Positions 6,005 to 19,881 of a stretch of 25,186 nt of DNA are shown one piece after another (position 1 is the first letter of the stretch; each line of letters begins with the position of its first letter). The translations under genes and the position numbers were made by a program. The stretch is from a virus. The stretch is taken from the IMG/VR virus record IMGVR_UViG_3300048508_000206, positions 1 through 25,186 of that record. One strand, written 5' to 3'. A model generated the notes under the pieces. It was not told where the DNA came from and searched no databases. It saw only the letters and a list, made by a program, of their open reading frames with translations.

Positions 6005-6604
6005 ATGTTTGTTGATGACAAAATTAGTCTAATTGATCCAAAAATTTTTACCGACAATTATGGAAAGATTAGAGAGGATTACATAAAGAATCGTAATTAT
6101 GATTTTTTTATTGATTATTCTCACACCTATGATATGACTGCAAATCCTGATGATGATTTTTTAGGATTTGATCTAACATTGACTGAAGAAAGTCCTTGGA
6201 AGATTTCCCCCCTCGTTTTTAATCGCAAGATTATTGGACGAACTCCCAAACAATGTAGGGAGTGCTTTACTACAAATCTTCTTCTCAGTCAACCAGTTCT
6301 CCCTGTCTTAGCAGTGTTCTCTATATTGGAACCTGGTGTAGAGTTAGAACCTCATAGTGATGGTGATCAAAGGATTGATGAGAACTATAAAGATTCTAGT
6401 GTAATTAAATATCATTTTAGTATTGATATACCATCAGATGGTGAGTGTGGGTTAGTGGTTAATAATGAAAAAAGAATTCTAAATAACGCTGATCTTAATA
6501 TGTTTGATGAGAAGTTATCTGAACATTATGCTTACAACAAATCTGATAATCGTAGAGGAGTATTGATCGTATCTTATATTAGAGATGAAGTATTGACCTA
6601 TTGA
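6005..6604 (+). CDS. 2OG/Fe(II) oxygenase, aspartyl/asparaginyl hydroxylase type
   Basis: 199 residues. EPGVELEPHSDGD supplies the HxD ligands (H117, D119), EHYAYNKSDNRRG the distal histidine (H164) and the 2OG-binding arginine (R173 or R174). The intervening YHFSIDIPSDGECGL strands fit the Asp/Asn beta-hydroxylase fold (Pfam Asp_Arg_Hydrox). Close in layout to the enzyme at 2824 but only distantly similar in sequence by eye. Its last codons contain the -35 box of the tRNA-Pro promoter. Substrate unknown. Confidence 0.8.
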   Translation: MFVDDKISLIDPKIFTDNYGKIREDYIKNRNYDFFIDYSHTYDMTANPDDDFLGFDLTLTEESPWKISPLVFNRKIIGRTPKQCRECFTTNLLLSQPVLPVLAVFSILEPGVELEPHSDGDQRIDENYKDSSVIKYHFSIDIPSDGECGLVVNNEKRILNNADLNMFDEKLSEHYAYNKSDNRRGVLIVSYIRDEVLTY

Positions 6605-6621
6605 TAAATTTTTGATATAAT
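6593..6621 (+). promoter_or_regulatory. Sigma70-type promoter before tRNA-Pro
   Basis: TTGACC (6593-6598), 17-nt spacer, TATAAT (6616-6621), 12 nt before tRNA-Pro. The -35 box is inside the last codons of the oxygenase gene. Confidence 0.65.
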
Positions 6622-6633
6622 ATAATTGATCTG

Positions 6634-6707
6634 CGGGGTGTAGCTCAGCTTGGTAGAGCACGCGCTTTGGGAGCGTGAGGCCGCAGGTTCAAATCCTGTC
6701 ACCCCGA
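6634..6707 (+). tRNA. tRNA-Pro (UGG)
   Basis: Acceptor CGGGGTG/CACCCCG, D stem GCTC/GAGC, anticodon stem CGCGC/GCGTG with loop TTTGGGA (TGG at 6668-6670), T stem GCAGG/CCTGT, loop TTCAAAT. Discriminator A. Confidence 0.95.
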
Positions 6708-6722
6708 TTTTGCTAAGTAAAA

Positions 6723-7346
6723 ATGTACGTATCTGCATATACTCCTCCCGAACCAATTGATCAAGAATCACATAGAGTTGCTGACTCACCAGTGATGTAT
6801 TACAGGGAAATAATCCCTGCAAAGTTAGTTGACATTATGGTTGATGAACTTAAAGAAATGGAGGAATTTAGAGTTGATTTTGAGGATGCTGGTGTTGGTG
6901 GAGATAGAGATGATCGAAATGATCATGCAGTAAGAAATTCAAAAGTTCATTGGTGGCCAGAGCATCACTGGGTCTGTAGTATAATGTCGCATTATATTGG
7001 ACTTGCAAATAAACACTATTGGGAATATGACTGCAGTTTTATGGAGAGCATTCAGGTATCTGTATATGAAGCGGGTGGGCATTATGCTTGGCATAGTGAC
7101 TATGGTACATCTAGTGACACCAACTTTACTAGGAAACTTAGTGCAAGTCTTTTAGTTAGTGAACCAAGTGAATATATAGGAGGAGATTTGGAGTTTATTG
7201 ATTATCATGGTAATCTAGTTAAATCTCCTAAGGAGAAAGGATCTATTATTGTGTTTGACTCTAGAGCTCCTCATAGAGTTGCTCCTGTAACGCATGGTAG
7301 AAGAGTCTCTCTTGTTACGTGGATGTATGGACCTAAATTACGATGA
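6723..7346 (+). CDS. 2OG/Fe(II) oxygenase, PKHD/prolyl-hydroxylase type
   Basis: 207 residues. SVYEAGGHYAWHSDYG gives the HxD pair (H124, D126), YIGGDLEFID the core strand, FDSRAPHRVAPVTHGRR the distal histidine (H184) and the 2OG-binding arginine (R193/R194). This is a textbook P4H-like (PKHD) oxygenase core in a full-length soluble protein. Its stop overlaps the next start as ATGA, so it is probably translated together with the next oxygenase. Substrate unknown. Confidence 0.9.
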   Translation: MYVSAYTPPEPIDQESHRVADSPVMYYREIIPAKLVDIMVDELKEMEEFRVDFEDAGVGGDRDDRNDHAVRNSKVHWWPEHHWVCSIMSHYIGLANKHYWEYDCSFMESIQVSVYEAGGHYAWHSDYGTSSDTNFTRKLSASLLVSEPSEYIGGDLEFIDYHGNLVKSPKEKGSIIVFDSRAPHRVAPVTHGRRVSLVTWMYGPKLR

Positions 7347-7990
7347 TTAATACTCCCTGGCCAACTTTTTCTAATCCCCCATTTAAAAAAATAAAACTTG
7401 ATCCTGAGTTATTATTTGATATTCTTTTAGAATATAATAAATGTAGATTCAATGAAATTTGTGATCAATCTTACTACGAGACACAATATGATGCCTATGT
7501 TTGTGAGGGGTCTATTTCTGCATTAAACAACGATAATCCTTTTACGTTGTGTTCTTTTGTTCCTGAAGAAAAATTTGAGGAATGGAATAAGAATCTTCAA
7601 CCGATCGCTGAGGAATGGTGTGGAAAAGAACTAAGGTTCCAACAAGCTTTTGGAATTAGGTCATATCAAAAAGATTGTATGTTGTGTGTTCATAGAGATA
7701 ATATAGATACACATGTGATCAGTGCTATAGTTTTTATTGATGAGTATCCTGATTGTAAATGGCCATTAGATTTTGTAGATCACGACGGTAAACATCATCA
7801 GGTCACCTTTGAGAAGGGGGACATGTTACTATATGAAAGTTTGTGTGCTCATGCTAGGGTAACACCATTTCCAGGTGAATTTTATAGGAACATGTATTTT
7901 CATTGGAGTCCTTCTGATTGGGAGTATAGAGAATATAAAGATAATAAAGTTCGTTACAGAAGTATTCAAGAGGTTCAAGATGAGTATTGA
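7343..7990 (+). CDS. 2OG/Fe(II) oxygenase, P4H-like
   Basis: 215 residues. IRSYQKDCMLCVHRDN holds H117 and D119; FEKGDMLLYESLCAHAR the distal histidine (H170); FYRNMYFHW the 2OG arginine (R182). The order and spacing match the double-stranded beta-helix of P4H-type oxygenases, although the HxD environment is unusual (VHRDN). Starts inside the stop of the preceding oxygenase and overlaps the following Phd-like gene by 11 nt. Confidence 0.8.
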   Translation: MINTPWPTFSNPPFKKIKLDPELLFDILLEYNKCRFNEICDQSYYETQYDAYVCEGSISALNNDNPFTLCSFVPEEKFEEWNKNLQPIAEEWCGKELRFQQAFGIRSYQKDCMLCVHRDNIDTHVISAIVFIDEYPDCKWPLDFVDHDGKHHQVTFEKGDMLLYESLCAHARVTPFPGEFYRNMYFHWSPSDWEYREYKDNKVRYRSIQEVQDEY

Positions 7991-8156
7991 AGTTTACACG
8001 GTTCAAGAATTTCAAGATCGATGGGATGAGATGATTGAAAGGGTAGAGAACGGTGAGCATATTGGAATAATTAATGAAGATGGAAATGCTGCAGTGATGA
8101 TGCCAGCAAAAGATGATATAATACGGATACACACGGATCATGATGATGCATCCTGA
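7980..8156 (+). CDS. Phd/YefM-like antitoxin
   Basis: 58 residues starting MSIEVYTVQEFQDRWDE. The pattern (tV-x-E-F-x-x-R-W-x-x-x-I-x-R-V-E-N-G-E-x-I-x-I-I-N-E-D-G) fits the N-terminal domain of Phd/YefM antitoxins, which bind DNA as dimers. The inner ATG at 7980 was chosen over 7875 because the longer form adds an unrelated hydrophobic segment antiparallel in logic to the fold and overlaps the oxygenase by 116 nt. No Doc- or YoeB-like toxin gene is adjacent, so it is an orphan. tRNA-Ile begins directly after its stop. Confidence 0.65.
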   Translation: MSIEVYTVQEFQDRWDEMIERVENGEHIGIINEDGNAAVMMPAKDDIIRIHTDHDDAS

Positions 8157-8228
8157 GGGACTGTCGCCTAACGGTTAAGGCCCACTGCTTATAACGGTGT
8201 GACCTGGGTTCAACTCCCAGCAGTCCTA
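8157..8228 (+). tRNA. tRNA-Ile (UAU)
   Basis: Acceptor GGGACTG/CAGTCCT (G-T first pair), D stem GCCT/AGGC, anticodon stem CACTG/CGGTG with loop CTTATAA (TAT at 8190-8192), short variable loop, T stem CTGGG/CCCAG. It would read AUA directly without lysidine modification. Abuts the preceding stop codon. Confidence 0.88.
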
Positions 8229-8231
8229 TTT

Positions 8232-8304
8232 GCTTCCTTAGCAATCTGGTGAATGCAGCAAACTCATAATTTGCCTAAGGTGAGTTCGATCCTCACAGGA
8301 AGCA
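8232..8304 (+). tRNA. tRNA with CAU anticodon (tRNA-Met, elongator type)
   Basis: Acceptor GCTTCCT/AGGAAGC, anticodon stem GCAAA/TTTGC with loop CTCATAA (CAT at 8265-8267), T stem GTGAG/CTCAC, loop TTCGATC, discriminator A. The first acceptor pair is G-C, so it is not an initiator. With CAT it is either elongator Met or a lysidine-modified Ile tRNA; the presence of a separate Ile(UAU) next door favours Met. Confidence 0.88.
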
Positions 8305-8305
8305 C

Positions 8306-8357: not shown

Positions 8358-8573
8358 ATGACTATCACTGCAAAGTTTAAAAAGGACATCAGTATTCTTC
8401 GTGCTGCTGCCGCTGGTGAAATTTTCCTTGATGTGAAGAACCCAAAACTTTTTAAAAAAGTTCGTCGCTATTATGAGAATACTGGAATTGTATTCTCTGG
8501 AGAACCTCTTGATGATTATGATATTTTGATGGAGTCACTTTCTGTTGACCTTGAATCTGTTGAAGTTGCTTAA
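8358..8573 (+). CDS. Small hypothetical protein, 71 aa
   Basis: Starts MTITAKFKKDISILRAAAAG and ends in an acidic stretch (DILMESLSVDLESVEV). Soluble, no cysteines, no membrane segment. It has its own promoter-like sequence 24 nt upstream and is followed after 2 nt by an oxygenase gene. Looks like a conserved small phage protein but I cannot name it. Confidence 0.7.
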   Translation: MTITAKFKKDISILRAAAAGEIFLDVKNPKLFKKVRRYYENTGIVFSGEPLDDYDILMESLSVDLESVEVA

Positions 8574-8575
8574 CA

Positions 8576-9190
8576 ATGTCGAATAATCAAAATTTAGAAG
8601 ATATTGCGTCAAAAGAATATCTGCATCAAGACTTTATTATGGTCTGGGATGATATTATACCGAGTGATTTTTGTGATTGGTTGGTAACTTATTTAAACAA
8701 TAGTAATTATCTTCATCCTCGTAGTAATAATTATCTGTCTGATAAACAAGTTGAGATGCATAACTTTTCTCCTGGAGAAGCAGATTACTTGCAGATGTTG
8801 GTAAATGGATGTGCCTTAGAGTATGTTAACAAATATCCATATCTTAAAGCATTCCCTTACACCAGTAGTTGTGTTTTGCTTCAGCAAACTAATCCTAAAG
8901 AGGGGTATCATGCATTTCATGCAGAAGATTCTACCTGGAACAATCAGTTGAGAACTCTTGCATGGATGGTTTATCTTAATGATGTTGATGATGGAGGAGA
9001 AACTGAATATCTATATCAACAACTTAAAATTAAACCTAAGCAGGGGCGAGTGGTTATTTGGCCAGGATCATTTACTCATATTCATAGGGGTAATCCACCG
9101 ATGAGTGAGAAGTTTATTGCTACTGGTTGGTATGCTGGATGTACAGGTCATGAACAAAGACTCTTCTCCCCTCTCGATTCCTCATCTTGA
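8576..9190 (+). CDS. 2OG/Fe(II) oxygenase, P4H-like with HxE variant
   Basis: 204 residues. GYHAFHAEDST provides the iron site with H115 and E117 (HxE in place of HxD), DDGGETEYLY the core turn, and WPGSFTHIHRGNPP the distal histidine (H168 or H170). The residue expected to bind 2-oxoglutarate appears to be K179 (SEKFIATGWY) rather than Arg. These substitutions keep the fold but may alter activity. Overlaps the downstream radical SAM gene by 41 nt, so the two are probably coupled. Confidence 0.8.
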   Translation: MSNNQNLEDIASKEYLHQDFIMVWDDIIPSDFCDWLVTYLNNSNYLHPRSNNYLSDKQVEMHNFSPGEADYLQMLVNGCALEYVNKYPYLKAFPYTSSCVLLQQTNPKEGYHAFHAEDSTWNNQLRTLAWMVYLNDVDDGGETEYLYQQLKIKPKQGRVVIWPGSFTHIHRGNPPMSEKFIATGWYAGCTGHEQRLFSPLDSSS

Positions 9191-10001
9191 GTGGCATGTA
9201 ACACATTCTTGTAATTTCACATGTCAAGGTTGTGGGCATTACACTAATGATGGGTATAGAGAAAATATTACATTACAAACTCTCAGGGAATGGTATCTCT
9301 TATGGAATAAGAGAATTAGACCTCGGGAGTTATCTATGTTAGGTGGAGAACCATTCTTGAATAAAGAGATCGTTGATATAATCTATATGACAAAAGAAGT
9401 TTGGGATGTTGGAGAAGATCAAGAACTTGAATTGGTATCTAACGGACTTCTTTTTGATAAAGTATCTGGAATTGATAAGGCGTTAATAGAAACTAATTGT
9501 ATTCTTACAATTACAAAACACTCTCTTGATCAAGATTACATTAAATTATTTGATAATGCAATACATAGAATAAAAAAATCTGGTGTAAATTATAGAATAC
9601 ATGATGCAACCGATTATTGGTTGAGGTCCTATAATGGATACGGGTCTTCAATGGAACCAATAACTAGTAACGACTATAGAGAGTCTTGGGATAATTGTCC
9701 TGTAGGGCAAGAGAATTTTATTTTACAAGACTCTAAAATATATAAGTGTGCTCCTTTGGCATATTTACCCCTACAGAAAAAAAAGTATGGTAATATTTTA
9801 TCTTCAAAGTGGGATCCATATTTAAAGTATGTTCCATTAGATTCTTCTTCATCTGACTTAGAAGTCTTTGAGTTTTTTATTAGGACTGCAGAATCTGTAT
9901 GCTCTATGTGTCCTTCTTCAAAACATTTATTTAAGAAAGAAACACCATTACATTCTCCTAACTATGTCAAAAAATTGTACGAAAAAAACTTTAAGAGTTG
10001 A
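9150..10001 (+). CDS. Radical SAM enzyme
   Basis: 283 residues starting MNKDSSPLSIPHLEWHV. CNFTCQGC at 21-28 is the CxxxCxxC motif that binds the 4Fe-4S cluster and SAM, and LGGEPFL at 64-70 is the GGE motif. Further cysteines (C183, C200, C241, C244) in the C-terminal part suggest an auxiliary cluster as in SPASM/Twitch enzymes. The internal ATG at 9150 was chosen because the earlier one (9105) adds an out-of-place hydrophobic stretch. It overlaps genes on both sides (41 and 38 nt). The substrate is unknown; position between oxygenases suggests a shared modification pathway. Confidence 0.85.
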   Translation: MNKDSSPLSIPHLEWHVTHSCNFTCQGCGHYTNDGYRENITLQTLREWYLLWNKRIRPRELSMLGGEPFLNKEIVDIIYMTKEVWDVGEDQELELVSNGLLFDKVSGIDKALIETNCILTITKHSLDQDYIKLFDNAIHRIKKSGVNYRIHDATDYWLRSYNGYGSSMEPITSNDYRESWDNCPVGQENFILQDSKIYKCAPLAYLPLQKKKYGNILSSKWDPYLKYVPLDSSSSDLEVFEFFIRTAESVCSMCPSSKHLFKKETPLHSPNYVKKLYEKNFKS

Positions 10002-10683
10002 TACTTTTGATGACTTCTTAGATGAAGATCTTAGAGAGTCTTTACATGCGAGTTCTTTAAAGCATTACGAACATAATCTTTATACTACGGACTGTATAGA
10101 TATAACCAAATCTATAATTGATTGTCATGGGTTAGCACTTTCGACTACAGCATACTTTCCGTATGATGATAATTGTTGGAATATCTTTTGTCTTTCTATA
10201 AAGGAGAAAGTTCAAACTTATGTTTTAGAGGAGTTTGGATATAGTTCTGATTATATTATTCCATTTTCTTGCTGGGGAGAGAGAGTTGATAGTCCCCAAT
10301 CTTATATAAAAAATGATGATATTAGAAATGGGATAATTGAAGACAGTATTAAAGAACATGTCATCTTAACGGCAGGGGATACTCCAGCAAAAGCGATTGA
10401 TTATTATCAAAATAAACATATTATTCGTTGTGTGTATAATATAATATCACCAGAGAATGATAATTTATATGCACTTAAAATTCTATACTCTAACGGTAAA
10501 TCTGCCCCATCAATTATCAAGGTCTTATCCAAACCAAATAGGTTGACAATTTTTGATGGACATTCTTTTGATCATCAATTGTGCTATCCAATAAAAGAAC
10601 TGCATAAAATTCCTAAGTATAATATAATTTTTGATTGGTATATCAATGATCCGTTTGATGTTCCTGATTGGATTCTTCCGTAA
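9964..10683 (+). CDS. Uncharacterised protein, possibly a degenerate 2OG oxygenase
   Basis: 239 residues from the ATG at 9964 (MSKNCTKKTLRVD); earlier in-frame starts would run deep into the radical SAM gene. The end (RLTIFDGHSFDHQLCYPIK, then a strand IIFDWY) has the shape of the distal-histidine strand of 2OG oxygenases. No convincing HxD pair is seen upstream and the usual Arg seems to be Lys. It overlaps the radical SAM gene by 38 nt and the convergent minus-strand oxygenase by 41 nt. Oxygenase ancestry is only a suggestion. Confidence 0.6.
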   Translation: MSKNCTKKTLRVDTFDDFLDEDLRESLHASSLKHYEHNLYTTDCIDITKSIIDCHGLALSTTAYFPYDDNCWNIFCLSIKEKVQTYVLEEFGYSSDYIIPFSCWGERVDSPQSYIKNDDIRNGIIEDSIKEHVILTAGDTPAKAIDYYQNKHIIRCVYNIISPENDNLYALKILYSNGKSAPSIIKVLSKPNRLTIFDGHSFDHQLCYPIKELHKIPKYNIIFDWYINDPFDVPDWILP

Positions 10684-11365
10684 AGCTACAGTCCATAACA
10701 ATTGATATTCTTGGACTTAATGCCAAATCTTCAAACTTTGGATAAACTGCTGTATGATATAGTCGGGGATTGAATATGAGTAAACTATTTTCTTCCCCAT
10801 CATTTTTGAACATTTTGGTATCGCTTAGTTTTACTATTGTTCCATATTTTGGATCTGGATTTTTTGCATAATATATTAATCCAATATCATTTGTTTCGTG
10901 AGAGTGCATGTTTCCAAATGTATTGTTCTGTGACAATCTTCTTTTTATTTCTTCTCGCGTATGTTTGTCATAGACTTCTTTTTTTAAGTGTTCTGTCCAT
11001 TCTGAAGATTTAGTTTGTACTGATGTGTAACCTGGAGTTTGTATTGAATTGTCTGCAACTCTAGTCATCCATGATTGGTCTACCTTTAATTTAGATATGT
11101 CCTTTTTTGTGACACTACAATATTTTAAAATATGTTTTTTTAATTCGGTATAGAATGATGTCCAAAAGGGATGGTCCTCTAATAGTTTGTAGCATTCTAT
11201 TGATGCTTCTGGTGGATATGTCTCTTCGTTGAATGGTTTCCTATTATTGTCTATCCAGTTACAGGACTCTTTTACTATATCATCTAGAAGATGTTCTGGA
11301 AAAACATTTGATGCTTTATAAAAATAGTTATCACCATGTCTTTTCACACTAATTGTTTTTGACAT
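10643..11365 (-). CDS. 2OG/Fe(II) oxygenase-like protein (minus strand)
   Basis: 240 residues. GNMHSHETNDIGLIYYAKNP (H154, H156) followed by LLIFNPRLYHTAVYP (H204) and LSPRISIVMD (R219) follows the pattern of the putative 2OG-Fe(II) oxygenase family with an HxH start (Pfam 2OG-FeII_Oxy_5). The N-terminal 120 residues are helical and not recognised. It converges with the preceding + strand gene and its 3' end overlaps it by 41 nt. A T4-late-like AAATAAATA on the minus strand lies upstream of its start, near 11395-11387. Confidence 0.7.
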   Translation of the reverse strand: MSKTISVKRHGDNYFYKASNVFPEHLLDDIVKESCNWIDNNRKPFNEETYPPEASIECYKLLEDHPFWTSFYTELKKHILKYCSVTKKDISKLKVDQSWMTRVADNSIQTPGYTSVQTKSSEWTEHLKKEVYDKHTREEIKRRLSQNNTFGNMHSHETNDIGLIYYAKNPDPKYGTIVKLSDTKMFKNDGEENSLLIFNPRLYHTAVYPKFEDLALSPRISIVMDCSFTEESNQEHQTDH

Positions 11366-11432: not shown

Positions 11433-12440
11433 ATGAAGACAGCACTTATTACTGGCATTACTGGGCAGGATGGTTCCTATCTTGCAGAGTTGCTTATCGA
11501 GAAGGGATATATGGTTCATGGGATTGTTCGACGAGCATCCCTTATTAATACCCATCGCATTGATCACATTTTTGATCACCCTCAGATGAAACTTCACTAT
11601 GGTGATCTTACTGATGCTGGTAATTTGATTCATGTAATTCAGAAGTCTCAACCAGATGAGATTTATAATTTGGGTGCTCAGAGTCATGTTAAAGTATCTT
11701 TTGAGATGCCTGAGTATACTGGTAATGTTGATGGACTAGGAACTCTGCGTATTCTTGAGGCAGTTCGTATTCTGGGGATGGAAGATAAAGTTCGTATCTA
11801 TCAGGCGTCTACAAGTGAATTGTATGGTGAGGTTCAGGAGGTTCCTCAAACGGAAACTACACCATTTTATCCAAGATCTCCTTATGGAGTAGCAAAGTTG
11901 TATGGATATTGGATTATTAAAAACTATCGTGAATCATATGGAATGTATGCATGTAGTGGTATCCTATTCAATCATGAATCTCCTCGTAGAGGAGAGACCT
12001 TTGTGACTAGGAAGATTACTATGGGATTATCTAAGATTAGTTGTGGACTTCAGGATGTTCTTCTTCTTGGAAATTTAAATGCAAAACGTGATTGGGGTCA
12101 TGCAAAAGATTATGTTGAAGCAATGTGGTTGATGCTTCAACAGGATTCGCCAGAAGATTATGTTATTGCAACGGGCAATCAATACTCTGTTCGAGAGTTT
12201 GTTGAAAAGTCTGCTAATTATTTTGGTATGAATATTGTATGGCAAGGTGAGGGTCAAGATGAAGTTGGGATTGATAAAAATACTGGAAGAGAGGTTATTA
12301 AAGTTGACCATAAATACTTTCGCCCAGCAGAAGTTGAGTCTCTTTTAGGGGATGCAACAAAAGCAAAAGAGCAACTTGGTTGGGAACCAAAAATTTCGTT
12401 TGATGAGTTAGTTGAGGACATGTGTATCTATGGACAGTGA
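11433..12440 (+). CDS. gmd: GDP-mannose 4,6-dehydratase
   Basis: 335 residues, near the usual family length. The N-terminus shows the Rossmann motif [14 protein letters not shown], then RRAS (nucleotide site), STSELYGE with the catalytic Ser/Thr-Glu, and YGVAK, the Tyr-x-x-x-Lys pair of short-chain dehydrogenases. It converts GDP-D-mannose to GDP-4-keto-6-deoxy-mannose in the cytoplasm. First gene of the glycan operon; the next gene, which takes its product, overlaps it by 11 nt. Confidence 0.97.
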
Positions 12441-13365
12441 TTCTAGAATTTTGGTTGCTGGTGCCAACGGTTTAGTTGGATCAGCAATAGTGAGGTGTCT
12501 GAAGGATAAAGGGCACTCATTTGTTATTGAAGCAACTCGTAGACAAGTTGATTTTACAGATCAAGTTCAAACTGAATCGTATTTTGGTTCTGTAAGACCT
12601 GAATATGTTTTTGTTGCAGCTGCCAAAGTTGGTGGCATTATGGCAAACAAAACATTACCAGCAGATTTTATTTACAAGAACTTGATGATTCAAACCAACA
12701 TCATCAATTGTGCTCATGGATATGGAACTAAAAAATTAGTATTCCTTGGGTCTTCTTGCATTTATCCAAAGCACGCTAACATTCCTATTACGGAAGATCA
12801 GTTGATGACTGGTCCATTAGAACCCACTAATGATGCGTATGCCGTTGCAAAGATTGCTGGCATCAAGATGTGTCAAGCATATCGTCATCAACATGGGTTT
12901 GATGCTATCTCTCTTCAACCAACTAATCTGTATGGTGTTGGAGATAACTTTGATCCTCTGTCGAGTCATGTTATTCCTGGAATTATGCGTAGGATGCATG
13001 AAGCAAAACTAAATGGTGATGAACAGTTCTGGTGTTGGGGTGATGGATCTCCTTTGAGAGAGTTCCTTTACATTGATGATATGGCAGAAGCGTGCTATGC
13101 TTGTATGCAGAATTATAGTGATTCTGAAATCATTAACATTGGCACTGGATATGACATCTCAATTAAAGAGTTGACACAAGTTATTGCTGAGGTTATTGGA
13201 TATAGTGGTGAAATTTATTGGGATACTTCCAAACCAAATGGAACCCCTAGGAAGGTTATGAATGTAGATAAACTACTTGATCTTGGGTGGAAACCTAAAG
13301 TTGATATTGTAGAGGGATTGACTAAAACTTACGAATGGTTTAAAGAGAATTATGATCGGATTTAA
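12430..13365 (+). CDS. fcl: GDP-L-fucose synthase
   Basis: 311 residues. [10 protein letters not shown] at 11-20 is the NADP-binding loop, AAAKVGGI and SSCIYP (108-113) are typical of WcaG/Fcl, and YAVAK (137-141) contains the catalytic Tyr and Lys. It epimerises and reduces the Gmd product to GDP-L-fucose. The ATG at 12430 was taken because the family starts just before the Rossmann strand. Overlaps gmd by 11 nt and the fucosyltransferase by 14 nt. Confidence 0.96.
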
Positions 13366-14155
13366 TGCGTTAGGGCAACTAGGTAGACTTGGCAATCAAA
13401 TGTTTCAGTATGCATCTCTTCGTGGGATTGCTGCTAAAAATGGACATGTTTGGATGATGCCTCCTCCAGCAGAATCTTACGACAAACTGGATGAATGGAA
13501 AGATCACCAACTCTTCTATCCTTTTAATATGAGCACAGTTCAAAATTTAAATGTTCAATATACTGATGGTGAAAGACCAGTTGTAAATGAAAAGACTTTT
13601 GGATTTGATGATGATCTCTATAACAACTGCCCCAAGTGGGTAGACGTTAGGGGGTACTTGCAATCTGAAAAGTACTTTAAAGATATTGAAGATACTATTC
13701 GTGAAGATTTTACCTTCAAACCTCAGTTCCTTAGACCTAGTAGGTCTATGATCAATTCCTTTGAGAATCCAGTTTCTTTACACATTAGAAGAACAGATTA
13801 TTTAACATTGTCACACAATCATAATAATCTTGGTCTTGATTATTATGAGGAAGCATTGACTCATTTTGATGGGGATAGAAATGTTGTTGTCTTTAGTGAT
13901 GATCCAGACTGGTGTAAAGAGCAGAGTCTGTTTGACGACGATCGATTCTTAGTTGCTGAAGGTAATATAAATTATGTTGATATGTGTTTAATGAGTCTTT
14001 GTAACGCACATATTATTGCAAACTCATCATTCTCTTGGTGGGGTGCATGGTTAGCGAAGAGCGAAAAGGTTATCGCTCCTAGCAAATGGTTTGGTCCAGA
14101 TAATAAGCATCTGGATACAACTGATCTTTATTGTGAAGGATGGATTATTATCTGA
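13352..14155 (+). CDS. GT11 alpha-1,2-fucosyltransferase
   Basis: 267 residues with the three hallmark GT11 blocks: GRLGNQMFQYA at 11-21, HIRRTDY at 144-150 (the HxRRxD donor-binding motif) and NSSFSWWGAWL at about 224-234. The enzyme transfers L-fucose from GDP-fucose, made by the two preceding genes, to a galactose-like acceptor. No signal peptide or membrane span, so cytoplasmic. Overlaps fcl by 14 nt and shares one base with the GT6 gene. Confidence 0.93.
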   Translation: MIGFNALGQLGRLGNQMFQYASLRGIAAKNGHVWMMPPPAESYDKLDEWKDHQLFYPFNMSTVQNLNVQYTDGERPVVNEKTFGFDDDLYNNCPKWVDVRGYLQSEKYFKDIEDTIREDFTFKPQFLRPSRSMINSFENPVSLHIRRTDYLTLSHNHNNLGLDYYEEALTHFDGDRNVVVFSDDPDWCKEQSLFDDDRFLVAEGNINYVDMCLMSLCNAHIIANSSFSWWGAWLAKSEKVIAPSKWFGPDNKHLDTTDLYCEGWIII

Positions 14156-14874
14156 TGAAAGTTGCTGTAATTTTTATTGGCACCGAGAAGTATCTAAACT
14201 TCCTGCCAACTTGGTATGAGAGTTGTGAAAAGTTTCTTCTTCCTGGAGTTGAGAAGAAGTATGCCATCTTTACTGATGGTGAAATTCCTGAAGCACCTGA
14301 TAACGCTGTCGTCTATAAGCAAGAGCATCTGGAATGGCCATACATTACTTTGTATCGCTTCAAGATGATTCGTAGATGCTTTGAAGATATTAAGGATTGT
14401 GATTGGTTACTCTTCCTTGACGCTGATATGCGTGTGGTTGATACCGTAAATCCAGAAGATCTGTTTGATGATACTAAGAAGTACATTGGTGTTCATCATC
14501 CATGTGATTACTTAAACTTCCCTCCACACGATAATATTCCTGGAGCATTTGATGTTACTCCTCTCTCCAGGGCATGTGTAGCAGAAGATGATGATCTGTC
14601 TATTTACGTGCAGGGTTGTCTGTGGGGTGGTAAAATGCCATATGTCATGGAGATGATTGAAGAACTTGATAGTAGAACTGATGAAGATGAGTCAAACAAC
14701 ATCATTGCAACCTGGCATGATGAGAGTCATTTGAATAAGTTTTATGTTGAACATCGAGATGAAGTATTTGTTGCTTCTCCCTCTCTTGCCTTCCCAGAAT
14801 TATTTGAGCAGGCATGTACATTCGATGCAAAAATTGTCCATCTAGCAAAAGATAATAGTAAGTATCATGTCTAA
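14155..14874 (+). CDS. GT6 (ABO-type) glycosyltransferase
   Basis: 239 residues from the ATG at 14155. LLFLDADMRV contains a DxD metal site (D89-A-D91), YVQGCLWGG (151-159) corresponds to the family's acceptor-side loop, and WHDESHLNK (187-195) is the signature of GT6 enzymes such as the human ABO transferases. The family adds Gal or GalNAc in alpha-1,3 linkage. Many bacterial members have NxN in place of DxD, so retention of DxD is notable; as I recall, a DxD-type GT6 has been described in a Prochlorococcus phage. No membrane anchor, unlike the vertebrate enzymes. Starts in the stop of the fucosyltransferase gene (ATGA-type overlap). Confidence 0.9.
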   Translation: MKVAVIFIGTEKYLNFLPTWYESCEKFLLPGVEKKYAIFTDGEIPEAPDNAVVYKQEHLEWPYITLYRFKMIRRCFEDIKDCDWLLFLDADMRVVDTVNPEDLFDDTKKYIGVHHPCDYLNFPPHDNIPGAFDVTPLSRACVAEDDDLSIYVQGCLWGGKMPYVMEMIEELDSRTDEDESNNIIATWHDESHLNKFYVEHRDEVFVASPSLAFPELFEQACTFDAKIVHLAKDNSKYHV

Positions 14875-15571
14875 GGTAGCTTTGATCTATTCAGGTCAAC
14901 CAAGACACCTGAAAGAATGTTTTGAGAATCATCAGTCTATGATTTGGGATGCAAATCCTGACGCAGAGATCGATGTATTTGCACATATATGGTATGATGA
15001 AGAATGGGTAGGATCATACTTTTGGGATCAATATAAAGATCGTGGACGTTGGGAAGCAGATCTTAAAGACTTTATGGTCGATAAGTGGCAACCTAAGGGT
15101 CTGGTCTTTGAAGAACCCAAACAGTTTGATGCTGAAGATATTCATCCTGATCCTAGATTCCCTCATCCTGTGAATAACATTATTTCTATGTTTTACAGTT
15201 TGAGTGAAGCAAATAACCTCAAGAAAAAATACGAGGAAGAAAATGGTTTTAAGTATGATTGCGTTGTTCGATTACGAACTGATGAATACTTTAATACACC
15301 AATTGGGTCACTTGACAATTACGATTTAAATACCGTAAATGTCCTTAATGAATGGGCGCATGTAGATCATGGTATTAATGACCACTTTGCATTTGGGTCC
15401 TCTGAACTAATGGATAAATATCTCGACGTATTTGAAAACTTCGTTGAAATTTGTGAGATGGGTGCAGAGATTAACCCTGAGTGTCTTATTGGATTCAATG
15501 CTCAAAAGAGACACAAACTTCCCATCACTAAAAATCCCTGGCACTATGTTCTTTGGAGAGACAAAAAATAA
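14867..15571 (+). CDS. SGQPR-motif protein, glycosyltransferase-like
   Basis: 234 residues starting MSKVALIYSGQPRHLKEC. The first strand plus SGQPR loop, VFAHIWYDEEW, NNIISMFYSLSEAN and YDCVVRLRTDEYF (an RxD-type acidic site) form an alpha/beta pattern seen also in the protein at 16947, so the two are paralogues. The architecture resembles a GT-A-like transferase, but no activity is established. Overlaps the GT6 gene by 8 nt and shares one base with the next gene. Confidence 0.7.
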   Translation: MSKVALIYSGQPRHLKECFENHQSMIWDANPDAEIDVFAHIWYDEEWVGSYFWDQYKDRGRWEADLKDFMVDKWQPKGLVFEEPKQFDAEDIHPDPRFPHPVNNIISMFYSLSEANNLKKKYEEENGFKYDCVVRLRTDEYFNTPIGSLDNYDLNTVNVLNEWAHVDHGINDHFAFGSSELMDKYLDVFENFVEICEMGAEINPECLIGFNAQKRHKLPITKNPWHYVLWRDKK

Positions 15572-16947
15572 TGACAACTAAACTTGTTATATTTGATTTG
15601 GATGGAGTCCTTATCGACAGTAAGGATTATCATTACGATGCTCTGAATCAAGCACTTGGTTCAGAATATGCAATCAGTAGGGGAGATCATGTCAGTATCT
15701 ACGATGGTCTTCCTACTAAAGCAAAACTGGAACTTCTTACGAAGAATAAAGGTCTTCCTGTAGATCAATATGATACTATCTGGAAAGACAAGCAGGAAGC
15801 AACTCTTAAGATCTTTAATGAGTGTGTTGCTAAAGACTATGAATTGATGGGTTACTTCCAACAGTTGGTAGATTCTGGTTATAAGATTGCAGTTGCCTCT
15901 AATAGCATTCGCAATACTGTGAAGATTATTCTCTTGCGTTTGGGATTGCTTGAGTTTGTAGATATGTACGTGTCTAATGAAGACGTTGTACGCAATAAAC
16001 CATTTCCAGCAATGTATTGGAAGTGCATGACCGCACTTGGTGCTATTCCAAACAATACTGTTATTATTGAGGATAGTCATATTGGTCGTCAAGGTGCATT
16101 AGATAGTAAGTGTCACCTTGTTCCCGTAGAAGATCGCAAAGATCTCAATCAAAGTAAGATTGACCGAATTAAAAAGATTTTAAATGGCACTAAGAAAAAA
16201 GTTGCATGGGAGAGTAAGACGATGAATGTATTAATTCCTATGGCAGGTGCTGGTAGTAGATTTGCTAGTCAAGGATACACCTTCCCTAAACCTCTTATTG
16301 AAGTTAAAGGAAAACCAATGATCCAAGTGGTCACTGAGAATCTCAATATTAAAGCAAACTATACATTCATTGTACAAAAGGAACACTATGATAAGTATAA
16401 TCTCAATTACCTGCTTCCTCTTATTGCTCCTGGGTGCAATATTGTACAGGTCGAAGGCATCACAGAAGGTGCAGCTTGTACCACTTTACTTGCGAAACAA
16501 TTCATCGACAACGACGAACCGTTAGTAATGGCAAACTCTGACCAGTTTGTTGAGTGGGATTCTAATGAGACTCTTTATGCCTTCCAGAATGGTGAGGTAG
16601 ATGGTGGTATTGTTACCTTCCCAGCAACTCATCCTAAGTGGTCTTATGCCAAGTTGGGAGATGATGGATACGTTGCTGAAGTTGCCGAGAAGAAACCAAT
16701 CTCAGAACATGCCACTGTTGGTATCTACTACTGGAAGAGAGGATCTGATTATGTTAAGTATGCTGAGCAGATGATCGAGAAAGATGTTCGGGTCAATAAT
16801 GAATATTATGTTTGTCCAGTCTTTAACGAAGCAATTGGTGATGGCAAAAAAATTCGCATCAAAGAGATCGATAAGTCTGGTATGTGGGGTATTGGAACTC
16901 CCGAAGATCTGAATTATTTCTTGGAGCATTACGAGGGTGAAGTTTGA
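15571..16947 (+). CDS. HAD phosphatase / sugar nucleotidyltransferase fusion
   Basis: 458 residues with two domains. Residues about 1-205 are a HAD hydrolase of the beta-phosphoglucomutase/phosphatase type: DLDGVLIDS (D9, D11), ASNS (S110), K143 in RNKPFP, and EDSHIGRQGA (E167, D168). Residues about 218-458 are a nucleotidyltransferase: PMAGAGSRF (223-231), FPKPLIEVKGKPM, NSDQFVEW as metal-binding acid, and GTPEDLNYF at the end. The two could prepare and activate a sugar or other phosphate for the operon's transferases. An internal ATG at M218 would yield the second domain alone. Confidence 0.88.
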   Translation: MTTKLVIFDLDGVLIDSKDYHYDALNQALGSEYAISRGDHVSIYDGLPTKAKLELLTKNKGLPVDQYDTIWKDKQEATLKIFNECVAKDYELMGYFQQLVDSGYKIAVASNSIRNTVKIILLRLGLLEFVDMYVSNEDVVRNKPFPAMYWKCMTALGAIPNNTVIIEDSHIGRQGALDSKCHLVPVEDRKDLNQSKIDRIKKILNGTKKKVAWESKTMNVLIPMAGAGSRFASQGYTFPKPLIEVKGKPMIQVVTENLNIKANYTFIVQKEHYDKYNLNYLLPLIAPGCNIVQVEGITEGAACTTLLAKQFIDNDEPLVMANSDQFVEWDSNETLYAFQNGEVDGGIVTFPATHPKWSYAKLGDDGYVAEVAEKKPISEHATVGIYYWKRGSDYVKYAEQMIEKDVRVNNEYYVCPVFNEAIGDGKKIRIKEIDKSGMWGIGTPEDLNYFLEHYEGEV

Positions 16948-17675
16948 TGAAAGTAGCACTAGCGTTTTTTGGTCAACCTAGATTTGTTGATAATCAGCAA
17001 ATTATTGATACCTACAAACAAGTAATTCTTGATAGGTATGACACCGATGTCTTTGGGCATATGTGGTGGAAAGAAGAGACAGAAGGAGAGTATGAGTACT
17101 CTTCTTGGTCAAAGATTGCAAAGTGTCCTATTTCAAAGGATGCTCCTAAAATTATTGCTGATAACTATGCCCCAATCATTATGGGTATAGAAGATCCAAG
17201 AACTTTTGAATTGCCTCCTAACGCACTTAAGTACGTTGATGAGAGATTCACTGGTAAGCATCCTGATGGTCCACACTGGAATCACAAGAACTATAGTAAT
17301 GTGATGTCCCAGTTGTTTTCTATTAAGTCAGTTGCTAATATTGTAAAGTCTTACGCGGAAGAGACTAATACCAGTTACGACTTTATTGTCCTTGCTAGGT
17401 ATGATACTGTCCTGATGAGGTTTCCTGATCTCAATACTTGTGACAAGTATAAGTTCTATCTTCCTGGACATCACCCCAGATTCCCTGATACTATTCAGTT
17501 CTTTGGTCCAAAGTATCTCACATGGGCACTAAATGCCTTTGATGATATTGATGATGTCTGTGAGGGAATTTGGGAACCTTCTCCAGAAGCATTTAAAATG
17601 GGTGCGTTTTTGCGTAGGTTTAGTCAGTCGGATCTTGCTCCTTGTCCTATGGATGCTGCTTGTATTAGAGGTTAA
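16947..17675 (+). CDS. FGQPR-motif protein, glycosyltransferase-like
   Basis: 242 residues starting MKVALAFFGQPRFVD, a paralogue of the protein at 14867: same first strand plus GQPR loop, VFGHMWWKEE matching VFAHIWYDEE, NVMSQLFSIKSV matching NIISMFYSLSEA, and DFIVLARYDTVLMRF matching DCVVRLRTDEYF. The ATG overlaps the stop of the fusion gene (ATGA). Function presumably similar to its paralogue; activity unknown. Confidence 0.7.
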   Translation: MKVALAFFGQPRFVDNQQIIDTYKQVILDRYDTDVFGHMWWKEETEGEYEYSSWSKIAKCPISKDAPKIIADNYAPIIMGIEDPRTFELPPNALKYVDERFTGKHPDGPHWNHKNYSNVMSQLFSIKSVANIVKSYAEETNTSYDFIVLARYDTVLMRFPDLNTCDKYKFYLPGHHPRFPDTIQFFGPKYLTWALNAFDDIDDVCEGIWEPSPEAFKMGAFLRRFSQSDLAPCPMDAACIRG

Positions 17676-17676
17676 A

Positions 17677-18135
17677 ATGAAATTAATTGCACATCGTGCC
17701 AATATCAATGGTCCAGATTCTTCTACTGAGAATAGTCCAGATCAAATTGACAAATGTATCGAACAGGGATATGATGTTGAAGTTGATATTAGATATGATC
17801 CCAAAACAGAACGTCTGTGGTTGGGACATGATGAGCCTCAACATGCGGTAACTTGGTGGTGGTTAGCGGCAAGAGCACAACATCTTTGGATTCATTGTAA
17901 AGATATTACTACTATGTTTGCTTTTTCTGATGGCACTAGTGGATATAATTACTTCTGGCATCAGGAAGATGACTTTACCCTAACCAGTAAACAATTTATC
18001 TGGAGTTATCCAGGTAAACCATATACAAGTAGAAGTATTGTTGTAATGCCAGAGTGGAATAATCCCAAATGGGATTCTCTGAAGGTTACTAACTGTTATG
18101 GTGTTTGTACAGATTATCCAGAAAAGTTAAAATGA
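17677..18135 (+). CDS. Short GDPD-like phosphodiesterase family protein
   Basis: 152 residues from the ATG at 17677. MKLIAHRANINGP (H6, R7), TENSPDQI (E18, N19), YDVEVDIRYD (E35, D37) and LGHDEPQ (H51, D52) reproduce the catalytic order of glycerophosphodiester phosphodiesterases. The barrel is far shorter than the usual 240 or more residues, with WIHCKD, NYFWHQEDDF and a CTDYP end, a layout suggesting a compact viral-type subfamily rather than a truncation. It may act on a phosphodiester-linked glycan. ATGA-type overlap with the next gene. Confidence 0.75.
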   Translation: MKLIAHRANINGPDSSTENSPDQIDKCIEQGYDVEVDIRYDPKTERLWLGHDEPQHAVTWWWLAARAQHLWIHCKDITTMFAFSDGTSGYNYFWHQEDDFTLTSKQFIWSYPGKPYTSRSIVVMPEWNNPKWDSLKVTNCYGVCTDYPEKLK

Positions 18136-19082
18136 AAATTGTATTAGTTGGTCCTGGTATTATGCCTATTCCCCCAACAGGTTGGGGTGCAGTAGAGATT
18201 CTTGTTTGGGACACAAAGAATGCCCTTGAGGAACTTGGGCATGAAGTTTACATCATCAATACCAAAGACTCTAGGCAGATTATTAATGGTATTAATGCCT
18301 TTGTCCCTGATTTTGTACATGTGCATTATGACGAGTTTATTCCGATAATGCCTTATATTCAGTATCCTAGTGCTATCACAAGTCACTTTGGATACCTAGA
18401 GCGTAAGGAAATGTTTGGTGGATATGCCAGTGTTTCTGCAGAATTTCAAAAGATTAAACCTAACGTCTTCTGTTTGTCTGAAGGAATTCAAAAGGTTTAT
18501 AATATCATGTTTGATATTCCTAAAGAAAATACTTTTGTAACACCTAATGGTGTAAACATTGATCGATTCAGAGTTTCAAAAGATCCTCTACATTCGGATC
18601 GTAGTATCTACCTTGCAAAAATTGACTATCGTAAACGTCAACATCTATTCCAAGGAATTGATAGTCTTTGGTTTGCTGGTAATCTTGCAGACAATAGGTT
18701 TGATACTAATAAAAATTATCTCGGGGAGTGGGATAAGGAGACTTTATATAACGAGTTAACTGACTACGGCAATCTTGTTCTTCTATCTGATGGTGAAGCA
18801 CATCCACTTGTTTGTATGGAAGCACTTGCTGCTGGATTGGGTGTTGTTGTATGTGAATGGGGCAAAGCAAATTTGGATCTTGATAGGGAATTTATTACAG
18901 TAATACCTGAAAATAAAATCAACGATCTTGAATTTGTTGAAGATGCAATAATTAAGAATCGAGAATATTCTATTAATAATAGAGATGAAATTATTGAATA
19001 CGCTAAGAAGTTTGAGTGGAAAGAAGTTTTACGTAATAACTATATCCCTAGTGTAGAGAAGGTAATTGAACGTCATGGATAG
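18132..19082 (+). CDS. GT4-type glycosyltransferase
   Basis: 316 residues from the ATG at 18132. The N-terminal Rossmann half begins MKIVLVGPGIMPIPPTGWGAVE, the typical acceptor-side loop of GT-B enzymes. TPNGVNIDRF (137-146) is the linker signature, and DGEAHPLVCMEALAAG (220-235) contains the E-x7-E motif (E222, E230) that binds the nucleotide-sugar donor. A cytoplasmic retaining transferase; donor and acceptor unknown. Confidence 0.92.
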   Translation: MKIVLVGPGIMPIPPTGWGAVEILVWDTKNALEELGHEVYIINTKDSRQIINGINAFVPDFVHVHYDEFIPIMPYIQYPSAITSHFGYLERKEMFGGYASVSAEFQKIKPNVFCLSEGIQKVYNIMFDIPKENTFVTPNGVNIDRFRVSKDPLHSDRSIYLAKIDYRKRQHLFQGIDSLWFAGNLADNRFDTNKNYLGEWDKETLYNELTDYGNLVLLSDGEAHPLVCMEALAAGLGVVVCEWGKANLDLDREFITVIPENKINDLEFVEDAIIKNREYSINNRDEIIEYAKKFEWKEVLRNNYIPSVEKVIERHG

Positions 19083-19881
19083 TGCTGTTGTAGATAAAAA
19101 CAAGTCCGCATATAAACTGAAAAACTTTGGTCCAGTTTATTATTTGAATATGGATGCCGATGAAAATCGTAAAGGTTATATGGAAGAGCAGTTTGCTCAT
19201 TGGAATGTAACTGACTATCATCGTATTTCTGCATATGATGGACGTGAAGATGATTTGAGTGGCATTCTTAAAGGTCGCTATCCTGATATGATGTCTTCTG
19301 GGGAAGTTGGTTGTATCACTTCACACTTGAAGGCGATTAAACATTGGTATGACACTTCCGATAGTCCTTATGCTATAATTATGGAAGATGATTGTAACTT
19401 AGATACTGTTCATTTTTGGAACTTCTCTTGGAGTGATTTTGTCGCAAACCTCCCATATGATTGGGATGTTGTACAAGTTGCAATTATTCAAACAGGTGAT
19501 GTGCATATTAAATTGCATCGCAGGTTTGTAAATGACTTCTCTACTGCTTGTTATATGATTACCAGGCATCATGCTGAGAAGTTAATTAAGCATCATGTCA
19601 AAGGTCCAGATAAGTATCGTTTAGATAATGGTGTCAAACCCCGTCCAGTTGCAGATGATCTCATTTACAATTCGGGGAATACTTATTCCATCCCATTACT
19701 GCTGTATAGACTTCAGTTGGGATCATCCATTCATCCAGAACATGTCGATGTCTTCCATAAACAGAACTTTGATGGTATAATGAATTGGTGGACACAGATG
19801 GGGGCAACAATGGAAGTTAAGACTATTACTGACTTCGATCCTTATCTGGGTAAAGTAAGTGATCCTTCTCAACATCGGTAG
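19075..19881 (+). CDS. GT25-family glycosyltransferase (LPS type)
   Basis: 268 residues from the ATG at 19075 (a TTG at 19066 is also in frame). VYYLNMDADENRKGYM at 21-36 matches the family's first strand with donor-binding Asn/Arg, GEVGCITSHLKAIKHW at 76-91 is the GCxxSH block, and IIMEDDCNLD at 101-110 the EDD metal site. Family members add galactose or similar to lipo-oligosaccharide cores. Last gene of the operon; overlaps the GT4 gene by 8 nt. Confidence 0.88.
   Translation: MDSAVVDKNKSAYKLKNFGPVYYLNMDADENRKGYMEEQFAHWNVTDYHRISAYDGREDDLSGILKGRYPDMMSSGEVGCITSHLKAIKHWYDTSDSPYAIIMEDDCNLDTVHFWNFSWSDFVANLPYDWDVVQVAIIQTGDVHIKLHRRFVNDFSTACYMITRHHAEKLIKHHVKGPDKYRLDNGVKPRPVADDLIYNSGNTYSIPLLLYRLQLGSSIHPEHVDVFHKQNFDGIMNWWTQMGATMEVKTITDFDPYLGKVSDPSQHR

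Follow-up and report, generated by a model that had tools for sequence, protein, structure and literature searches.

Four successive, overlapping genes of a cyanophage place a radical SAM enzyme with extra cysteines beside 2OG oxygenases and an oxygenase-like partner. Do they constitute one dedicated modification pathway, and does such a pathway act on a peptide, a tRNA, a nucleotide or a glycan, as the initial annotation had left open? The analysis covered the window, by which we mean the complete virus record of 25,186 bases, and the genes were read within these 25 kb. The relatives of the window among the records are Synechococcus and Prochlorococcus phages, and two IMG/VR contigs (3300017719_003925 and 3300017713_000272) carry an identical block with 100% protein identity. 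The reading that we favor, with a probability of roughly 0.55, is that the block is glycan-tailoring cargo of a T4-like cyanophage, in which a radical SAM enzyme of the SpeY/BtrN type (rSAM) would oxidize a sugar and the oxygenases would decorate.

Results

Positions and overlaps of the four genes

The four ORFs were found in the window sequence at the places given in Table 1. With the ATG starts listed there, the OxyA/rSAM, rSAM/OrfC and OrfC/OxyD overlaps are 41, 38 and 41 nt, as had been reported; the last pair is convergent, and its overlap is independent of start-codon choice. Judged by homology, all four ORFs are real genes because numerous independent contigs carry conserved homologues of them.

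Table 1. Positions of the block, its borders and other features of the window
Feature	Position	Strand	Assignment or basis
OxyA	8576-9190	+	2OG-Fe(II) oxygenase, prolyl-4-hydroxylase-like (by sequence)
rSAM	9150-10001 (ATG 9150)	+	SpeY-like twitch radical SAM enzyme (by sequence and model)
OrfC	9964-10683 (ATG 9964)	+	best called a catalytically dead 2OG-oxygenase-fold protein, OxyD paralogue
OxyD	11365-10643	-	putative 2OG oxygenase
phrog_552, left border gene	8358-8573	+	PHROGs; also in phages without the block
GDP-mannose 4,6-dehydratase (GMD), right border gene	11433-12440	+	PF16363, E 2e-156
Glycan island	12412-19881	+	Pfam
GT11, then GT6	13352-14874		fucosyltransferase family, then blood-group A/B transferase family
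HAD phosphatase + nucleotidyltransferase	15553-16947		fused
Three oxygenase-like genes	6005-7990		upstream of the block
Phd-like antitoxin gene	7980-8156		small
tRNA-Ile and tRNA-Met	8157-8305		immediately before phrog_552

The repeated overlap of about 40 nt had also been taken as the signal of a module, and this reading was dropped because the lengths are not conserved and range from 4 to 41 nt across relatives. Among these, the OxyA/rSAM overlap is 4, 23, 32, 35 or 41 nt and the rSAM/OrfC overlap 4-26 nt. For OrfC/OxyD, relatives have 4, 8 or 29 nt and the window alone has 41 nt, and in one locus (L015) the two genes are separated by an additional gene. Other adjacent gene pairs in the window overlap too, by 4-31 nt and by up to 143 nt. 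The regularity is a coincidence of general compaction.

rSAM as a twitch enzyme

rSAM matched the radical SAM core above the cutoff (PF04055, E 1e-8). Seven of its cysteines are invariant in 22/22 phage and bacterial sequences; three form the CxxxCxxC motif of the radical cluster (C21/C25/C28), and four are assigned to an auxiliary cluster (C183, C200, C251 and C254). The structure predicted for rSAM (pTM 0.83) has strands 190-193 and 196-198 in the stretch from C183 to C200, and the arrangement of cysteines flanking a beta-hairpin, followed by a later cysteine pair, corresponds to the single auxiliary cluster site of a twitch enzyme. A PDB profile search with rSAM placed SpeY at the top (7wzv/7wzx/7x0b, E 1.8e-12), and the SpeY entries also came first in a fold search with the model (E 3e-11, 261-262 columns, TM 0.62); viperin, MoaA and SPASM enzymes reached a TM of about 0.4. 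The PDB title reads 'The structure of a Twitch Radical SAM Dehydrogenase SpeY', and we take SpeY to be an enzyme of spectinomycin biosynthesis. rSAM resembles SpeY in its domain layout, full-length fold, radical-cluster motif and auxiliary-cluster region. However, the two proteins are only 17-18% identical, and SpeY belongs to an antibiotic cluster whereas rSAM lies beside a phage glycan island. The SPASM motif, which has seven cysteines for two auxiliary clusters (PMC6231123), is absent from rSAM, where only the four extra cysteines are conserved. By sequence and predicted fold, rSAM is a twitch radical SAM enzyme and not a generic maturase.

BtrN, the 2-deoxy-scyllo-inosamine dehydrogenase (butirosin), partners the aminotransferase BtrS. 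The auxiliary cluster of BtrN is fully ligated by four cysteines and is the proposed electron acceptor in the oxidation of a cyclitol alcohol, and that of MoaA has three cysteine ligands and binds substrate (PMC9012708). Like BtrN, rSAM has four cysteines available for the full ligation of one auxiliary 4Fe-4S cluster, and since these are invariant, oxidation would be favored. BtrN was absent from the sequence matches of rSAM, so that this likeness is one of architecture only. Three points count against sugar oxidation: the TM of 0.62 to SpeY is a distant match, a twitch dehydrogenase cannot be told from an epimerase or dehydratase by its sequence, and function does not track clustering in this subfamily (a warning given in PMC6231123).

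The oxygenases and the oxygenase-like partner

OxyA is, by its sequence, a P4H-like member of the 2OG family with conserved iron residues. It matched PF13640 above the cutoff (E 1.2e-10) and phrog_61 (E 4e-46), and the best solved structures in a profile search were bacterial prolyl 4-hydroxylases (3itq/5hv0, E 2e-10). The iron triad and the basic 2OG residue are present as H115-x-E117, H168 and K179, roles that were assigned by position; these residues are invariant (n = 14 sequences), and E117 stands where D is usual.

OxyD matched the 2OG oxygenases of phrog_81 (E 1e-5), and a PDB profile search gave no relative. H154, H204 and R219 are invariant in 32 homologues, whereas residue 156 is His in 28/32 and Glu in 4/32 and is never Asp. 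OxyD is a putative 2OG oxygenase, with a His/Glu at the second iron position that makes activity uncertain and that counts against the glycan-tailoring reading. The gene is tandemly duplicated in several of the loci L015-L022, and in L019 and L021 the putative iron site of one copy reads HTE rather than HSH/HAH.

OrfC had no family match in Pfam, PHROGs or NCBIfam, a tblastn search in phages found nothing, and a profile comparison with OxyA gave no match. The alignment of OrfC matched that of OxyD with an hhalign probability of 98.6 (E 6e-16), and the AF2 model of OrfC (pTM 0.76, mean pLDDT 68) resembled PHD2 prolyl hydroxylases in a fold search (E 8e-6, TM about 0.52). Because of this profile comparison and this fold, OrfC is best called a 2OG-fold pseudo-oxygenase and an OxyD homologue. 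The fold is present, and the triad and the Arg are missing: among 24 OrfC homologues, His occupies OxyD column 154 in one and column 204 in none, and Arg occupies column 219 in none. The family has invariant residues of its own, which include DCHGL and ER. The catalytic motifs are thus not kept across the block, since its third gene has lost the Fe-His and 2OG-Arg residues.

The block occupies a cargo slot

The content between phrog_552 and the GDP-fucose/glycosyltransferase island varies across phages, and the site of the block is therefore a cargo slot. Loci of the window's lineage share the gene order OxyA-rSAM-OrfC-OxyD(-)-GMD-FCL-GT11-GT6 even where rSAM identity falls to 59%. OxyA is missing from L011-L014, where the glycan island is kept, and L131-L133 read phrog_552-rSAM-GMD, with OxyA, OrfC and OxyD absent. 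L118-L122 have a distant OxyD homologue in the slot and no rSAM. The GMD islands of P-SSM2 and S-SKS1 are like that of the window in having phrog_552 on the left, and GMD and a nucleotide-sugar epimerase on the right; they differ from it in lacking all four block genes, and the space between the borders is taken up by just one or two small ORFs. The initial annotation had itself named independent occurrence of the genes in relatives as a ground against a dedicated pathway, and the loci just described are such independent occurrences. OrfC was seen beside rSAM only, with the exception of one remote copy (L086). In summary, rSAM travels with the glycan island and OxyA is optional. The synteny with glycan genes could reflect hitch-hiking at the cargo slot, which counts against a sugar reading.

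Glycan islands occur in many cyanophages. That of the window encodes a GDP-fucose synthase-like protein, GT11, GT6, a DUF7796-like protein, the HAD and nucleotidyltransferase fusion, two unassigned proteins, a GT4-like protein and GT25. No aminotransferase was found among these genes by Pfam, and this counts against a sugar reading. GT11 and GT6, downstream of the GDP-fucose genes, resemble a blood-group assembly set, here carried by a cyanophage; GT6 was reported earlier in two cyanophages (PMC3961637). The fused HAD phosphatase and nucleotidyltransferase is of the kind found in activated-sugar pathways.

Of the three additional oxygenase-like genes upstream of the slot, one belongs to the Asp/Asn hydroxylase family and one to PF13640, and the third encodes a protein of 215 aa related to a phage family that is annotated as ferrochelatase; most relatives keep the same order. 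The window has seven tRNA genes, two of which directly precede phrog_552, and the small Phd-like antitoxin gene is also close to the slot.

Neighbors of distant rSAM homologues

Seven distant viral loci (L157-L159, L161, L163, L167 and L175) have a full-length DegT/StrS aminotransferase gene immediately upstream of the rSAM homologue, with a spacing between a 10-nt overlap and a 24-nt gap, and the DegT protein of L161 is closest to glutamine-scyllo-inositol transaminase and WbpE. This arrangement parallels the pairing of BtrN with BtrS. A Pfam survey of 61 proteins that flank distant viral rSAM homologues found DegT most often, then other aminotransferase models, GT2 and Asp/Arg hydroxylases; GDP-mannose dehydratase is also present.

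In Synechococcus phage S-SCSM2R (PQ898602), the genes around an rSAM homologue with 41% identity encode GT25 or other glycosyltransferases, a 2OG oxygenase, a short DegT protein and an amidinotransferase that matches the StrB inosamine-phosphate amidinotransferase (1bwd) with an E of 1e-60. L149 has the same gene set, and the two amidinotransferases are 75% identical. This glycan cluster is like the window in that rSAM lies beside a 2OG oxygenase and glycosyltransferases. It is unlike the window in that OrfC and OxyD do not adjoin rSAM and in that it has amino/guanidino genes not seen in the island of the window. Other, unrelated arrangements also have a 2OG oxygenase gene next to a member of this rSAM family. 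A literature search on SpeY/7WZX, S-SCSM2R, and phage radical SAM with amidinotransferase found nothing relevant in the collection of papers that it covered.

The bacterial rSAM homologues are 31-37% identical. In three genomes they adjoin sugar genes, which encode EryCIII-like glycosyltransferases in two cases and a GT2/GT4 protein in one. In contrast, the rhizobial homologues adjoin genes for metallo-beta-lactamase-fold, amidase and GNAT proteins and not sugar genes, which counts against a sugar reading. No single consistent pathway was found in the bacterial neighborhoods.

Other features of these viral loci were recorded. The DegT proteins beside rSAM at L025:8408-8995 and L149:4906-5496 have about 195 aa, approximately half of the 350-371 aa seen elsewhere. 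Several viral contigs (L134, L136, L137, L141 and L143) have islands of paralogous radical SAM genes, which in some of them are adjoined by an Asp/Arg hydroxylase. In marine virus AG-345-D19 (L028:4528-6774), the rSAM homologue adjoins a protein with a carbamoyltransferase C-terminal domain.

Discussion

The combination of a radical SAM enzyme that has four extra cysteines with 2OG oxygenases, as first described, holds up, and in one cyanophage lineage the majority of loci have it with the genes in the same order. Of the dedicated pathway that had been proposed, the glycan alternative is supported by fold, profile and neighbors, and the obligate partnership of four genes is not. These same three lines of evidence point to chemistry on a sugar or glycan and not on a peptide, tRNA or DNA. 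The glycan reading is also drawn from the observation that rSAM stays with the GMD island where OxyA, OrfC and OxyD are absent.

In the proposed mechanism, rSAM would cleave SAM at the CxxxCxxC cluster and abstract the carbinol hydrogen from a sugar that is free, nucleotide-bound or within a glycan. The second electron would pass to the fully cysteine-ligated auxiliary cluster, and a keto-sugar would be left. In related phage loci, the DegT/StrS-type aminotransferase would convert the ketone to an amine, and in some of them the StrB-like amidinotransferase would then give a guanidine. In the lineage of the window, OxyA is predicted to be active and would oxidize the sugar further, or else a residue of an acceptor protein; OxyD may act as a second oxygenase in this additional oxidation, and OrfC probably serves as a scaffold or as a partner without catalysis. 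The pathway would yield an unusual, oxidized sugar, carried either by the glycan of the phage itself or by an altered surface polysaccharide of the host. Both a nucleotide sugar and an assembled glycan are possible substrates, and the glycan may be a virion decoration or a changed host surface.

The strongest competitor, though we consider it improbable, is that a tolerant slot gathers unrelated moron genes and that each of the four acts alone. The slot lacks the block in P-SSM2 and S-SKS1, holds only rSAM in L131-L133, and in L118-L122 contains an OxyD-like gene but not rSAM; OxyD is duplicated in several loci and lies on the opposite strand. Against this, the order and orientation of rSAM, OrfC and OxyD are kept across diverged loci, and OrfC keeps to rSAM bar its single remote copy. 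Somewhat less probable is a division of labor in which OxyA hydroxylates Pro/Lys-type residues of a structural protein, GT25, GT11 and GT6 build a glycan on them, and rSAM tailors the sugar. This would fit the P4H-like character of OxyA, the GT25 in the island, and the OxyA-like 2OG gene that precedes at least one GT25, DegT and rSAM in L139, L148-L152 and S-SCSM2R. However, L011-L014 and L131-L133 keep the island without OxyA, and the acceptor protein is only hypothetical.

We regard it as distinctly unlikely that rSAM is a RiPP-type maturase of the SPASM/twitch kind that acts on a phage peptide, with the oxygenases hydroxylating the same peptide. The depositors of S-SCSM2R named the homologue 'radical SAM superfamily maturase, SkfB/NifB/PqqE family', rSAM gave weak partial matches to NCBIfam peptide maturases, and OxyA is prolyl-hydroxylase-like. 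Yet those matches were all far under the cutoff and covered the core only, and the best solved relative of rSAM is a sugar enzyme. The CxxxCxxC motif begins at residue 21, which leaves no space for an N-terminal recognition domain, and no such domain was found in rSAM, nor was a precursor peptide gene found among the adjacent ORFs; the small upstream phrog_552 protein is encoded by phages that lack the block too. Least credible by far is a viperin- or MoaA-like enzyme that acts on nucleotides, possibly in antiviral chemistry. Viperin and MoaA were the next best matches of rSAM by fold and profile, but their alignments covered only the core (about 160 columns, at the low TM given above), rSAM scored 37 bits on the viperin model against a cutoff of 180, and it has the four auxiliary cysteines.

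The block assembles members of known families, and what is new is their combination and their setting. A more specific and more tentative proposal, which we hold to be possible but doubtful, is that chemistry in the style of the aminocyclitol antibiotics, with twitch radical SAM oxidation, transamination and amidino transfer, is applied by marine phages to their own glycans, and that in one cyanophage lineage rSAM works with a dedicated, dead 2OG-fold protein. OrfC represents a clear instance of a viral pseudo-oxygenase retained beside presumably active relatives. In related phages, a SpeY-like rSAM accompanies DegT and StrB-like proteins, and this points to a testable product, which is a keto-, amino- or guanidino-sugar. 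If this is true, the sugar radical chemistry of antibiotic biosynthesis would reach the surfaces of viruses or the alteration of host surfaces.
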